This document shows positions 10,604 to 20,141 of a stretch of DNA of 64,000 bases, one piece after another. The stretch lies in NCBI RefSeq assembly GCF_022899935.1, contig NZ_JALJCJ010000002.1, forward strand, positions 868,001 through 932,000. The letters are read 5' to 3'. The notes beneath the pieces were generated by a model. That model was not told where the DNA came from. It was given only the letters and a program-made list of their open reading frames with translations, and did not search any database. This stretch comes from Shinella curvata (lineage in GTDB: Bacteria; Pseudomonadota; Alphaproteobacteria; Rhizobiales; Rhizobiaceae). The position numbers and the translations under genes are program-made. Position 1 is the stretch's first letter. Each line of letters begins with the position of its first letter.

Positions 10604-11182
10604 TCACTCGTCCAGTCCGCAGATCGAGCGGGCAATGCCGTCCTGCCAGTCCTTGAGCAGAACGAATTGCGCCTGGCCGGCGACAGGACGACCGTTGCTC
10701 TTGCCCTTGCCGGTCAGGACGTTGAGGTCGCATTCGCTGCCGCCGTCAGGATTGAGCGTATCATAGGAAGAATAGGTATAGCCGGCGACGATGAAGTCGA
10801 AATTGCGGTAGGCTATGGTGAGCGACTGGCGCCAGCGGTCGCGGCCGACCGAATCGTTCTTGGTCGTCAGGGTGAAGGAGCCATTGGCGAGCGCGGCGAC
10901 CTCCGGCTCCTGGCCATACATGGTGAGATTGCCCCAGACGGAATTCGGCAGCGACCGGACCAGCGTCAGCCGGTTTTCCTCGGGCTTGGCGAGATAGACG
11001 TAGAGCCCGTTGTCGTCGCCGCTGTCGTCACCCGGCGTGGCGATGACGGCCAGATCCGCCGCGCCGTCCTTGTTCCAGTCGCCGGTCGCCATGGCGACAA
11101 TCCGGTCTGCCGGAAAGTCGGCGGCCAGCGCAGCGGCGGGCAGGGCAATCGAAAACACGACGGCGGCGGCAAGCAACTTCAT
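10604..11182 (-). CDS. hypothetical secreted protein with FG-GAP/VCBS-like motif
   Basis: This 192-residue protein has an N-terminal Sec signal peptide (about residues 1-20, ending in ALAAD). The segment GDWNKDGAADLAVIATPGDD, followed by DDNGLYVYL, resembles an FG-GAP/VCBS-like calcium-binding repeat. Two cysteines occur near the C-terminus (SECDLN and SICGLDE). It should be periplasmic or exported. The ATG at 11182 has a GGAGG ribosome-binding site. A much longer reading frame continues upstream across dnaE but is antisense to it and not credible. The function is unknown. Confidence 0.78.
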   Translation of the reverse strand: MKLLAAAVVFSIALPAAALAADFPADRIVAMATGDWNKDGAADLAVIATPGDDSGDDNGLYVYLAKPEENRLTLVRSLPNSVWGNLTMYGQEPEVAALANGSFTLTTKNDSVGRDRWRQSLTIAYRNFDFIVAGYTYSSYDTLNPDGGSECDLNVLTGKGKSNGRPVAGQAQFVLLKDWQDGIARSICGLDE

Positions 11183-11256
11183 CTCATTTCCTCCATGGAG
11201 TGGAGGCGACCTTATTGCGCGCGGCAGCATCGGTCCAGAGGGGCTGTGGAAAGCTG

Positions 11257-11285
11257 TTGACATGAGAACAATAATAGAACAAAAT
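11257..11285 (+). promoter_or_regulatory. SOS-type promoter of the 28-residue membrane peptide
   Basis: A consensus -35, TTGACA (11257-11262), is followed after exactly 17 bases by the -10 CAAAAT (11280-11285). The LexA-type box lies between and touching the two hexamers, so a bound repressor would block RNA polymerase. Transcription would start near 11291, leaving a leader of about 20 bases that carries the ribosome-binding site of the small gene at 11313. Confidence 0.75.
11266..11280 (+). promoter_or_regulatory. LexA box (GAAC-N7-GAAC)
   Basis: The direct repeat GAAC at 11266-11269 and GAAC at 11277-11280 is separated by exactly seven A/T-only bases. GAAC-N7-GAAC is the established alphaproteobacterial SOS box. 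Its position inside a TTGACA-N17-CAAAAT promoter makes it functional-looking, and a second copy sits at dinB in this window. Confidence 0.78.
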
Positions 11286-11312
11286 AAAAACATAAAAGGA
11301 AAGGGAGCCAAA

Positions 11313-11399
11313 ATGACTGATTTTCTTCGTGACTTTGCTGCATTCACCTCCATGGCCCTGTTCGTCGCCAGCTTCTCCGTTCTTCTCTTCGGAATCTGA
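11313..11399 (+). CDS. 28-residue single-span membrane peptide, predicted SOS-induced
   Basis: This short gene starts at an ATG at 11313 with a strong purine-rich ribosome-binding site (AAGGAAAGGGAG) and ends at TGA 11397-11399. The peptide begins MTDFLRDF and then forms one hydrophobic helix of about 18 residues up to the C-terminal Gly-Ile. No other feature explains its promoter and LexA box. The layout (LexA box, short leader, tiny inner-membrane protein) matches Caulobacter SidA, a 29-residue SOS inhibitor of division that acts on FtsW. Homology cannot be judged at this size, so the functional analogy is inference. dnaE1 starts 141 bases downstream. Confidence 0.68.
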   Translation: MTDFLRDFAAFTSMALFVASFSVLLFGI

Positions 11400-11539
11400 C
11401 ATTTCCATCTCTTCGTTGAGCATTCTTGTCCGCTGCGCGCCGCTGGCGCGTGGAAAGCGGGTGCAACGCCAAGAACCGTCTGGACGAGACGGGTCCGAAT
11501 CCGTTTAAGCTCTTTCTTCTGATCGGAAGGAAGTTTGAC

Positions 11540-14500
11540 ATGGCGGAAATGGTGCAGGCGACGGTTGGCGAAGGGATCGCGGAGACGCCGGAATTCGTGC
11601 ATCTGCGCGTGCATTCGGCCTTTTCGCTTCTCGAAGGCGCCTTGCCGATCAAGAAGATCATCGGCAAGGCGATATCCGATCAGCAGCCGGCGATTGCCAT
11701 CACCGATACGAACAATCTGTTCGCTGCGCTCGAGTTTTCGCAGAAGGCCGTCGGCGATGGCATCCAGCCGCTCATTGGTTGTCAGCTGTCGATCGACATG
11801 GAGGACGAAGGTGAGGGCGAGCGGCGCGGCGGGCAGGCCCAGCTGCAGAAGCTGCCCTCTATCGTCGTTCTTGCTGCGAGCGATGCCGGCTATGCGCGCC
11901 TTGTCGAGTTTGTCAGCCGCGCCTATCTGGGCGGCGAGAGCGGGCAGGCGATCCGCATTGCCCATAGCTGGCTCGAGGAGGGTACCGACGGGCTGATTGC
12001 GCTGACGGGCGCGCGCGGCGGCCCGATCGACATGGCCTATCTTGCCGGGCAGCCCATTGTCGCGAAGGCGCGGCTTCATGCGCTGAAGCGGGTTTTCGGC
12101 GATCGGCTGTATCTTGAGCTGCAGCGTCACGGGCGCTACGACAAGCAGCACGAGCGCCGCATGGTTGAGCTCGCCTATGCGGAAGATGTGCCGCTGGTCG
12201 CGACCAACGAACCGTTCTTCCCGGCGCCTGATGACTACGATGCCCATGACGCGCTGATGGCGGTGGCACACAATGCCATGGTGTCGGACGATAATCGCTT
12301 TCGCCTGTCGCCGGATCATTATCTCAAGAGCCGCAAGGACATGGCAAAACTCTTTGCCGATCTGCCGGAGGCCCTGGAAAACACGATCGAGATCGCGAAA
12401 CGCTGCTCTTTCGTCTTGAAGACGCGCGGGCCGATCCTGCCGCGCTTCACGGGGGCGACGGACGATCCGGAGGAGGCGGAACGCGCCGAATCGGCAGAAC
12501 TGCGCCGCCAGTCCGTGGAGGGGCTGGAGAACCGCATGGCGCTGCTCGGCCTCTCGCCGGGCTATACGGAGCAGGATTATCGCGAGCGGCTGGATTTCGA
12601 GCTCAGCGTCATCGAGCGCATGAAGTTTCCCGGTTACTTCCTGATCGTTGCCGACTTTATCAAGTGGGCCAAGCAGCAGAACATTCCCGTCGGGCCGGGC
12701 CGTGGCTCGGGTGCGGGTTCGCTCGTCGCTTACGCGCTCACGATCACCGATGTCGATCCGCTGCGTTTCTCCCTGCTCTTCGAACGCTTCCTCAATCCGG
12801 AACGCGTTTCGATGCCCGACTTCGACATCGACTTCTGCCAGGACCGCCGCGAAGAGGTGATCCGCTACGTCCAGCAGAAATACGGCCGCGAGCAGGTGGC
12901 GCAGATCATTACTTTCGGTTCGCTACAGGCCCGCGCGGCACTTCGCGACGTCGGCCGCGTGCTCGAAATGCCCTATGGCCAGGTCGACAAGATCTGCAAG
13001 CTCGTGCCGAACAATCCGGCCAGCCCGACGCCGCTCTACAAGGCGATCGAGGAGGAGCCGAAGCTGCAGGAAGAGGCGGAGAAGGAGCCGGTCGTCGCGC
13101 GCCTGCTCGATATTGCCCAGAAGATCGAAGGCCTCTACCGCCACGCCTCCACGCACGCCGCCGGTATCGTGATCGGCGACCGACCGCTGTCGCAGCTTGT
13201 GCCGATGTACCGCGATCCGCGCTCCGACATGCCCGTCACCCAGTTCAACATGAAGTGGGTGGAGCAGGCCGGTCTGGTCAAATTCGACTTTCTCGGCCTG
13301 AAGACGCTGACCGTCCTGAAGACTGCCGTCGATTTCATCCGCAAGCGCAATATCGAAGTGCATCTCGAAAGCCTGCCGCTGGACGACCTGCTTACCTACG
13401 AGATGCTGTCGCGCGGCGAGACGGTCGGCGTGTTCCAGGTGGAAAGTGCCGGCATGCGCAAGGCGCTGATCGGCATGCGGCCGGACTGCATCGAGGACAT
13501 CATCGCGCTCGTGGCGCTCTACCGTCCCGGCCCGATGGAGAACATTCCGGTCTACAACGCCCGCAAGCACGGCGAGGAAGAGATCGAATCGATCCATCCG
13601 ACGATCGACCATCTGCTCAAGGAAACCCAGGGCGTTATCGTCTACCAGGAACAGGTGATGCAGATCGCCCAGGTTCTCTCGGGCTATTCGCTCGGCGAGG
13701 CCGATCTTCTGCGCCGCGCCATGGGCAAGAAGATCAAGGAGGAGATGGACAAGCAGCGCGCCCGTTTCGTCGATGGCGCGGTCAAGAACGGCGTGTCCAA
13801 GCCGCAGTCCGACCTGATCTTCGACCTGCTCGCCAAATTCGCCAACTACGGCTTCAACAAGTCGCACGCCGCCGCCTACGCCATCGTCTCCTATCAGACC
13901 GCCTATCTAAAGGCGCATTACCCGGTCGAGTTCCTGGCCGCGTCGATGACCTACGATATGTCCAACACGGACAAGTTGAACGATTTCCGGCAGGATGCAG
14001 GCCGTCTCGGGATCGCTGTCATTCCACCCTCGGTGCAGACGTCCTTTGCGCATTTCGAGACCGGCGAGAGCCGCATCTATTACGCGCTCGCCGCCATCAA
14101 GGGGGTGGGCGAAGCGGCGGTGCAGCATATCGTCGAGGTGAGGGGCAACGCCCCCTTCAAGAGCCTCGAGGATTTCTGCACGCGCATCGATCCGAAATTC
14201 GTCAACCGCCGGGTTTTCGAAAGCCTTATCGTTGCCGGCGCCTTCGATTGTTTCGGCCATGACCGCGCCGCCATGATCGCCGGCCTCGACCGTCTGCTGG
14301 GGGCGGCCCAGCGCGCGCAGGAGAACAAGACGAGCGGGCAGGGCGACATTTTCGGCATGGGCGCTGCGACCGGGCCGGAGGTCATCACGCTGCCCGCCTA
14401 TACGCCCTGGCTTGCCTCGGAGAAGCTCCACCGCGAATTCCAGGTGCTCGGCTTCTATCTCTCGGCGCACCCGCTCGATACCTATGCGCCGCTTCTTGCG

Positions 14501-15034
14501 AAGATGCGCGTCCAGACCTTCGGCGATTTCGCCGCCGCCGTGAAGCGCGGCGCGACGGCCGGCCGGCTTGCCGGTACGGTCACCTCCAAGCAGGAGCGCA
14601 AGACCCGCACCGGCAACAAGATGGGCATCGTCGCCTTCTCGGATTCTTCCGGCCAGTTCGAGGCCGTGCTGTTTTCCGAAATGCTCAACCAGTATCGCGA
14701 CCTGCTGGAGCCCGGCAAATCGCTGGTCATGACCGTGCAGGCGGAAGAGCGCCCGGAAGGCATCGGCCTGCGCATCCAGACGCTGCGCTCGCTGGAGGAG
14801 GAGGCGCTCCAGACACAGAAGGCGCTGCGCGTCTATGTCCGTGACAGCGGCCCGCTGCGCTCCATCGCCGCCCATCTCAACACGAAGGGCGACGGCCTCG
14901 TCTCCTTCATCGTCATCAAGGACAATGGCCAGCGCGAAATCGAGGTGGAGCTGAACGAACGCTTCCGCATCTCCCCCGAAATCGCCGCCGCCCTGCGTTC
15001 GGCGCCGGGCGTGCTGGATGTGGAGCTGGTCTAG
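11540..15034 (+). CDS. dnaE: DNA polymerase III subunit alpha (replicative, DnaE1)
   Basis: This is the catalytic subunit of the replicative polymerase. The 1164-residue protein has an N-terminal PHP domain (VHLRVHSAFSLLEGA near residue 20), the polymerase palm with PDFDIDFCQDRREEV (catalytic Asp427 and Asp429), fingers, a helix-hairpin-helix region, and a C-terminal OB fold (GRLAGTVTSKQERKTRTGNK). The length and PHP sequence fit DnaE1 and not the shorter error-prone DnaE2, and no imuA/imuB genes are adjacent. The ATG at 11540 has GGAAGGAAG upstream; the frame stays open 38 codons earlier without a better site. Confidence 0.96.
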   Translation: MAEMVQATVGEGIAETPEFVHLRVHSAFSLLEGALPIKKIIGKAISDQQPAIAITDTNNLFAALEFSQKAVGDGIQPLIGCQLSIDMEDEGEGERRGGQAQLQKLPSIVVLAASDAGYARLVEFVSRAYLGGESGQAIRIAHSWLEEGTDGLIALTGARGGPIDMAYLAGQPIVAKARLHALKRVFGDRLYLELQRHGRYDKQHERRMVELAYAEDVPLVATNEPFFPAPDDYDAHDALMAVAHNAMVSDDNRFRLSPDHYLKSRKDMAKLFADLPEALENTIEIAKRCSFVLKTRGPILPRFTGATDDPEEAERAESAELRRQSVEGLENRMALLGLSPGYTEQDYRERLDFELSVIERMKFPGYFLIVADFIKWAKQQNIPVGPGRGSGAGSLVAYALTITDVDPLRFSLLFERFLNPERVSMPDFDIDFCQDRREEVIRYVQQKYGREQVAQIITFGSLQARAALRDVGRVLEMPYGQVDKICKLVPNNPASPTPLYKAIEEEPKLQEEAEKEPVVARLLDIAQKIEGLYRHASTHAAGIVIGDRPLSQLVPMYRDPRSDMPVTQFNMKWVEQAGLVKFDFLGLKTLTVLKTAVDFIRKRNIEVHLESLPLDDLLTYEMLSRGETVGVFQVESAGMRKALIGMRPDCIEDIIALVALYRPGPMENIPVYNARKHGEEEIESIHPTIDHLLKETQGVIVYQEQVMQIAQVLSGYSLGEADLLRRAMGKKIKEEMDKQRARFVDGAVKNGVSKPQSDLIFDLLAKFANYGFNKSHAAAYAIVSYQTAYLKAHYPVEFLAASMTYDMSNTDKLNDFRQDAGRLGIAVIPPSVQTSFAHFETGESRIYYALAAIKGVGEAAVQHIVEVRGNAPFKSLEDFCTRIDPKFVNRRVFESLIVAGAFDCFGHDRAAMIAGLDRLLGAAQRAQENKTSGQGDIFGMGAATGPEVITLPAYTPWLASEKLHREFQVLGFYLSAHPLDTYAPLLAKMRVQTFGDFAAAVKRGATAGRLAGTVTSKQERKTRTGNKMGIVAFSDSSGQFEAVLFSEMLNQYRDLLEPGKSLVMTVQAEERPEGIGLRIQTLRSLEEEALQTQKALRVYVRDSGPLRSIAAHLNTKGDGLVSFIVIKDNGQREIEVELNERFRISPEIAAALRSAPGVLDVELV

Positions 15035-18773: not shown

Positions 18774-20120
18774 TTATTCGGTGGGGTCGTCGATTTTTCC
18801 GGCGGTCTTGAAAGTCAACTTTCCGTGAAAGCGGTCGGGACCGGATTTCCCGAATGTGTATCCCGTTTCCACGCTCGCCTTGCCAAATTTGTCGCGCAGC
18901 GTATTCATCGCGGCCTCCGCTGCGGCGCGACGACTGGCGGCGGGATCGACGAGATCGGGCGGATCGGCCCGGCCGGGATCGGTGAGATCGCTGACGCCGA
19001 TGCCGATCAGGCGGTATTTCGTGCCATCCGTCTCCTTGCGCAGAAGCTCGATGCCGGTGCGGAAGATCCGGTCGGCGAGCATGGTGGGGTCTTCGAGCCT
19101 GCGGTTGCGCGTGCGGCCTTTGAAATCGGCCGTCTTTAGCTTGAGCACGACGGTGTGACCGGCAATGCCGGATTTGCGCAGGCGCGCCGCAACCTTCTCA
19201 CTGAGGCGGCGCAGATGCGCGACGAGATCGTCATAGTTCGAGAGGTCGTCGAAGAACGTGGTCTCGGATGATACGCTCTTTGCCGCGTCATTCAGGTGCA
19301 CTTCGCGGTCGTCCTGACCGCGCGAGAGATGGAAAAGCCGCTTGCCCATCACGCCGTAACGGCGCATCAGGTCGGTTTCCTCCATGGTCTGGAGTTGCCC
19401 GACGCTGCGGATGCCGTCGCGCTCCAGCGTCTCTGCGAAGGCCTTGCCGACCCCCCAGATGAGCCGCACGGGCTTGTCCTTCAGGAAATCCAGCGCCTCT
19501 TTTTCACCGATGACGGAAAAGCCGCGCGGCTTGTTGAGATCCGAGGCCACCTTGGCGAGGAACTTGCAATAGGACAGGCCGACGGAGATGGTGATGCCCA
19601 CCTCCTTTTCTACACGCTGGACGAAGCGGGCGAGCACGCGGGCCGGGGGATCGTGATGCAGGCGCTCCGTACCCTTCAGTTCCAGAAAGGCTTCGTCGAT
19701 GGAGAGCGGCTGCACCAGCGGCGTCAGTTCCTGCATCATGGCACGCACTTCGCGGCCGACCTTGACGTATTTTTCCATGTCCGGTGGAATGACGATGGCG
19801 TTGGGGCAGGCTTCCAGCGCCTTGAACATCGGCATGGCCGAGCGCACGCCGTGAATGCGCGCGACATAACAGGCGGTGGAGACGACCCCACGCTTTCCGC
19901 CGCCGATGATGACGGGTTTGTCGGCAAGCTCGGGATTGTCGCGCTTCTCCACGGCGGCATAGAAGGCGTCGCAATCGATATGCGCCAGCGTCAGGTCATA
20001 GAGTTCGTCGTGGTAGACGAGGCGTGGGCTACCGCAGGCCCGGCATCGGCGCAGGTTCGCAGGCTGCCCGGTCAGGCAGTCGCGACAGAAGCCCGGTAAA
20101 CGCGTGGCGGCGGTGCTCAT
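18774..20120 (-). CDS. dinB: DNA polymerase IV
   Basis: This Y-family translesion polymerase has catalytic carboxylates in [12 protein letters not shown] and SIDEAFLEL, and a fingers/thumb region ending with the little-finger domain. At 448 residues it is about 90 longer than E. coli DinB. The N-terminus carries a four-cysteine motif (CRDC and CRAC, 11 residues apart) that could bind zinc, and the C-terminus is extended. The start is ATG 20120 or 20123. A LexA box at 20127-20141 directly adjoins the start codon, so SOS control is expected. Confidence 0.94.
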
Positions 20121-20126
20121 CATCAA

Positions 20127-20141
20127 GAACAAACATTGAAC
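20127..20141 (-). promoter_or_regulatory. LexA box (GAAC-N7-GAAC) at dinB
   Basis: GAAC at 20127-20130 and GAAC at 20138-20141 are separated by exactly seven bases, the alphaproteobacterial SOS box. It lies between the predicted -10 and the dinB start codon, so bound LexA would block initiation or early elongation. Confidence 0.78.

Follow-up and report, generated by a model that had tools for sequence, protein, structure and literature searches.

A 28-codon open reading frame directly upstream of dnaE in Shinella curvata most likely encodes an orthologue of SidA and, by kinship, an SOS-induced brake on FtsW. We put the probability of this reading at roughly 0.8, because the frame shares its position, its LexA regulation and its sequence with a peptide of Caulobacter. 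Published work describes SidA as an inner-membrane protein of 29 residues that is induced in the SOS response and interacts with FtsW (PMC4211646). The original prediction for this locus had proposed a SidA-like role from the sequence alone, and the kinship is now supported both by gene position and by a sequence match to the Caulobacter peptide upstream of dnaE.

The proposed sidA orthologue occupies positions 11313–11399 on the forward strand of the window, the 64-kb stretch of S. curvata DNA analysed in this work. Its promoter combines a −35 hexamer TTGACA (11257–11262, +) with a −10 hexamer CAAAAT (11280–11285, +) across a 17-nt spacer, and the two hexamers agree with the consensus at 10 of 12 positions. 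Between them lies an exact match to the LexA pattern GAAC-N7-GAAC, GAACAATAATAGAAC (11266–11280, +), which has one base in common with the −10 hexamer. The second half of this box runs on into a degenerate third half-site, AAAC (11288–11291, +), that is in phase with the box, so that 11277–11291 matches the pattern with one mismatch. The ribosome-binding site GGAAAGGGAG (11298–11307, +), which by eye looks similar across the loci of the genus, stands ahead of the ATG at 11313. From there, 28 codons and a stop that ends at 11399 encode the peptide MTDFLRDFAAFTSMALFVASFSVLLFGI, whose 28 residues contain one predicted hydrophobic helix. The maximum 18-residue hydropathy is 2.08, and that of the C. 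vibrioides counterpart is 2.09. Directly 3′ follows dnaE for the replicative DNA polymerase III alpha subunit (11540–15034, +), identified by its match to TIGR00594. The promoter, the exact box between its hexamers, the strong ribosome-binding site, the hydrophobic 28-codon gene with its frame, start and stop, and the polymerase neighbour had all been claimed in the original prediction, and each was recovered at these positions.

Exact LexA boxes by themselves carry little weight here, as the window contains two of them and 2.11 are expected. The box alone is thus at chance level, and it is conservation that lifts the locus above chance. The second exact box (20127–20141) falls at the start of a minus-strand gene at 18774–20132, for which we keep the name dinB given in the earlier note. 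On the other side of the LexA promoter, and sharing the intergenic region with it, lies a divergent minus-strand gene (10604–11182) whose product, by eye, looks like a secreted hypothetical protein. Within the antisense of this gene, an Rfam c-di-GMP-II riboswitch model matched weakly at 10831–10907 (25.7 bits, with a gathering score of 47.9), probably by chance. Elsewhere in the genome there are two further DnaE-family polymerase genes (C1:12273-15209 and C14:495851-498793), probably of the dnaE2 type because of their lower scores.

The 28-codon frame is a real, conserved gene under purifying selection. A full-length match was present in 21 of 21 genus genomes searched, own included, and pN/pS over all pairs of these genomes was 0.24, compared with 0.97 and 15 in the other two reading frames. 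Identities at codon positions 1, 2 and 3 were 0.90, 0.99 and 0.80. Ungapped identity reached 0.90 in the frame and 0.67 in the promoter stretch, and it was 0.31 after the stop and 0.38–0.50 further upstream. Conservation across the genus and the pN/pS value rule out a chance open reading frame. The window peptide matched no NCBIfam or Pfam model at E ≤ 10 and no PHROGs family at E ≤ 0.001.

Within the Rhizobiaceae, a search with the single sequence gave matches at E ≤ 10 in 146 of 297 genomes, of which the weak ones may be due to chance, and a 19-row profile matched 126 of the 297 at E ≤ 0.01. The 46 loci that we fetched are the best matches of the genus and family searches, own included, from a search that was not anchored at dnaE. 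In every one of them dnaE lies close downstream, the DnaE match beginning 114–436 nt past the stop of the peptide. In 42 of these loci, own included, an exact LexA box stands no more than 90 nt from the ATG, and 38 have a third half-site of the form [GA]AAC in phase. Frame and box are hence both conserved in relatives and non-synonymous change lies below synonymous change, as the original prediction had anticipated for a functional gene. Among the 171 family genomes without a profile match, 20 were read upstream of dnaE; eight of them hold a divergent copy, seven of these with an exact box, and the remaining twelve have neither box nor peptide in this place. Peptide and box therefore tend to occur together, and the peptide is dispensable in some lineages.

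MipZ did not serve as a link to Caulobacter, since all its matches in the window genome were partial and ParA-like, and we used the sliding clamp of PDB 5wce instead, which we take to be that of Caulobacter and which matched C. vibrioides at 100%. Of the 80 genomes found with the clamp, 22 were taken further and their dnaE located; one with a broken dnaE (G700) was left out, which leaves 21 usable Caulobacteraceae loci. Where several in-frame starts were present, the ATG giving 29–30 residues was chosen. With this choice, all 21 loci carry a hydrophobic peptide of 29–30 residues just upstream of dnaE, together with a LexA box of at most one mismatch, exact in 12 of them. C. vibrioides DSM 9893 has a 29-residue membrane peptide upstream of dnaE with the box GAACATCTTGTGAAC, and from its length, box and position we infer that it is the published SidA. 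In C. crescentus, sidA is presumably CC1927. The dnaE gene of this species is CC1926 (PMC1839093).

A plain profile search reached little beyond the family. It matched 100 of 385 genomes of the class at E ≤ 1, nearly all partially, and the best match apart from the window's own had an E value of 0.002; we hence turned to a survey anchored at dnaE. Matches to dnaE were obtained in 109 genomes of the order and 141 of the class, and 90 upstream regions were read in each group, namely the 30 best-scoring ones and others picked by hand, in the class mostly from larger genomes. Two of the order regions, both without a box, belong to the window's own family (L294 and L309), and one class region (L237) is only 123 nt long. 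Exact boxes were present upstream of dnaE in 48 of 90 order and 18 of 90 class regions, frequencies that are not unbiased, since the regions were partly picked by eye. Dinucleotide shuffles (40 each) gave on average 1.5 boxes for the order and 1.7 for the class, with a maximum of 4. Within 130 nt of a forward-facing box, a hydrophobic frame of 24–60 residues starts in 42 of 47 order and 13 of 14 class cases. The corresponding counts were 35 of 940 and 22 of 280 when the downstream DNA was shuffled, and in boxless regions at matched positions the fractions were 0.16 and 0.04.

From 36 of the 42 order peptides we built a profile that is independent of both the window's family and the Caulobacteraceae. 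Four of the six omitted peptides had an automatic start that fell inside the helix (L282, L284, L292 and L321), L212 is divergent, and no rule lay behind the omission of L288; when the six were scanned in frame, L212 scored 2 and the others 14–30. The independent profile scores the window peptide at 19.4 and the C. vibrioides peptide at 11.3, and none of 20,000 shuffles of either peptide reaches its score. Overlapping membrane-helix windows, 962 in all and drawn from five proteins encoded in the window, reach −0.2 at best. In leave-one-out scans, where the row itself was dropped and close relatives remained in the profile, a score of at least 5 was found in 44 of 48 boxed versus 4 of 42 boxless order regions, in 7 of 18 boxed versus 0 of 72 boxless class regions, and on the reverse strand in 1 of 180 regions. 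For the class, 11 of the 13 peptides were tested with the profile, L241 and L257 being omitted as near-duplicates (L257 scores −4.4). Three of the 11, and one of seven Caulobacteraceae peptides, lie only 1.2–1.7 SD and 1.9 SD, respectively, above their own shuffles, and some class peptides appear too divergent to place. In one class genome (L375), two exact LexA boxes are followed by a peptide that has the GFVWM helix of the Caulobacter type and that the order profile missed.

The shared motif is roughly [RKQE]-[DE]-x-A-A-[LF]-x-[SA]-[LVI]-x-x-F, with the Phe in all 36 profile rows, and in 29 of the 36 a Trp follows seven residues past this Phe. The rhizobial peptides of our first alignment lack this Trp, and the contact with FtsW may thus differ. 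Taken together, the window peptide resembles SidA in its length of about 29 residues with one predicted membrane helix, in the LexA box of its promoter, in its place just upstream of dnaE, if published sidA is the Caulobacter frame described above, and in its sequence, as judged by a profile that contains neither of the two groups compared.

The same arrangement occurs in Sinorhizobium meliloti. In strain Ak57 (CP090106.1), the unannotated frame MADFVRDLAAFASMSLFIVSISVIALGL encodes 28 residues, 16 of the 28 identical to the window peptide; the annotated dnaE begins about 150 nt beyond its stop, and upstream of the frame two exact LexA boxes overlap. The record is labelled pSymB, yet it carries dnaE and the preceding genes of a lipoprotein-release transporter, and it is therefore probably a mislabelled chromosome. 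Ribo-seq of S. meliloti 2011 found a previously unannotated frame, sORF25, to be translated in the 5′-UTR of dnaE1, and the authors propose roles as upstream open reading frames (uORFs) for sORFs of this kind; SOS, LexA and SidA do not occur in the main text (PMC10117765). From its position, sORF25 would be the S. meliloti homologue of the window peptide.

In a rival reading, in line with the uORF roles suggested for sORF25, the frame would mainly be a uORF or leader that tunes dnaE by translation, and the LexA box would serve dnaE. In all 46 loci the frame stands ahead of dnaE, which would fit such a role, as would our search between the 28-codon frame and dnaE, in which no terminator-like site was found. 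Moreover, dnaE is named among the alphaproteobacterial genes with LexA sites, as reported earlier for C. crescentus, in a paper where sidA goes unmentioned (PMC3323433). However, a frame that acts by being translated does not account for selection on its amino acids (pN/pS 0.24), nor for a helix motif that several families have in common, down to the aligned Phe in 36 of 36 profile rows. The distance from the stop to the DnaE match also varies from 114 to 436 nt, which fits ill with translational coupling. We hence regard a mainly regulatory frame as improbable.

Somewhat less probable still is an SOS-induced toxin of the TisB or DinQ type that depolarises the membrane. Size, hydrophobicity and LexA control would be alike, but no antisense promoter-like site was seen in 11100–11700 and no Rfam RNA above its gathering score in 10800–11800, both weak tests, and the profile groups the window peptide with the Caulobacter peptide upstream of dnaE. 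The least probable of these readings is a small SOS-regulon membrane protein that acts on something other than the divisome: the function of the window peptide is deduced from relatives and the absent Trp could mean a new partner, but the peptide is akin in sequence to a peptide whose divisome target is known, and the FtsW positions at which suppressors arise are conserved.

For a SidA orthologue, these FtsW positions deserve a closer look. In FtsW, the substitution A31K suppresses SidA, and F145L and A246T act as suppressors of SidA as well as of DidA (PMC4211646). The C. vibrioides FtsW sequence found here has A31, F145 and A246, and the sole PF01098 protein matched in the window assembly has A, F and A at the aligned positions. 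As 178 of 381 aligned residues are identical between the two proteins, conservation of three positions is weak evidence, and it is consistent with a SidA-type target. A paper of 2026 models SidA on helix 7 of FtsW, without high confidence (PMC13396833).

We propose that in undamaged cells LexA would occupy the box between the hexamers, in tandem with the third half-site, and keep the gene off. RecA-triggered cleavage of LexA would then release a burst of the 28-residue peptide from its promoter and ribosome-binding site. The peptide would insert into the inner membrane and associate with FtsW, so that the late divisome (FtsW/FtsI/FtsN) is kept inactive until repair ends. Partial read-through would extend into dnaE. 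SOS induction, membrane insertion, the FtsW target and division arrest are all deduced from the likeness to SidA.

Additional copies may point to a second, mobile context. Six family genomes have more than one profile match; in the five that we examined (all but G115), eight copies lie away from dnaE (L410, L412, L413–L415, L416, L418 and, weakly, L421). None of the eight is preceded by an exact LexA box within 200 nt, and the four dnaE-linked copies of these genomes (L411, L417, L419 and L420) all have one. L410 lies directly upstream of genes for an Erf annealing protein and a YqaJ recombinase, and L412 and L416 adjoin members of the phage families phrog_1376 and phrog_10477. The peptides of L410 and L412 are also found on contigs that IMG/VR lists as viral, where they make up 3 of 46 fetched viral loci, all from one IMG genome and two on the same contig. 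Of two scans of the phages collection, one yielded a single weak match (E 3), to a phage present in two records, and the other none. With box-less copies beside phage genes and identical peptides on viral contigs, prophages may in rare cases have captured the brake as a division inhibitor.

In the openly licensed literature, we found among the matches listed no title or abstract on SidA outside Caulobacter and no rhizobial SOS division inhibitor; this scope does not include the SidA paper of 2011, and an earlier notice there is possible. The SidA family and its locus may hence be broader than the literature describes, and this breadth may be new. We may further speculate, with rather more doubt than confidence, that the SOS response of the Alphaproteobacteria ancestrally used SidA as its brake on division, and that sidA became fixed as part of a LexA-sidA-dnaE unit. 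From a single LexA site, such a unit would block septation and at the same time provide more replicative polymerase. What has been credited to dnaE as a LexA site would then primarily be that of sidA, and some prophages would have captured LexA-free sidA copies beside recombination genes as inhibitors of host division. A family that extends well beyond Caulobacter would, if true, give rhizobia a candidate SOS division inhibitor and explain both S. meliloti sORF25 and the LexA site that has been reported at dnaE. It would also provide dozens of naturally occurring SidA variants with which to map the FtsW contact. The division brakes of rhizobia are of added interest because these bacteria block division in symbiosis.

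Several known systems invite comparison. SulA is a cytosolic protein of well over 100 residues that acts on FtsZ, and the window peptide, with 28 hydrophobic residues, does not belong to this type. TisB and DinQ of E. coli are membrane-active toxins and, like the window peptide, small, hydrophobic and LexA-controlled; in contrast, they come with antisense RNAs, of which our weak tests gave no signal at the window locus. Bacteriophage lambda carries Kil among its early genes, a parallel to the proposed prophage capture of the brake. YneA, SosA, ChiZ and DivS are damage-induced membrane or late-division inhibitors. They are, however, other proteins, some with LysM domains, for which no shared sequence is claimed; several inhibitors of this type have been modelled on FtsW (PMC13396833). 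S. meliloti sORF25 is a translated small frame in the dnaE1 5′-UTR, in a place that matches the Ak57 homologue, although its authors see uORF roles for it, with no reference to SOS, LexA or SidA in the main text. From SidA of Caulobacter, the rhizobial form differs by another C-terminal half without W and by the third LexA half-site in tandem at its locus. Both are encoded upstream of dnaE behind a LexA box, both have 28–29 residues with one hydrophobic helix, and R, D/E, A, S, F and V stand in register between them.
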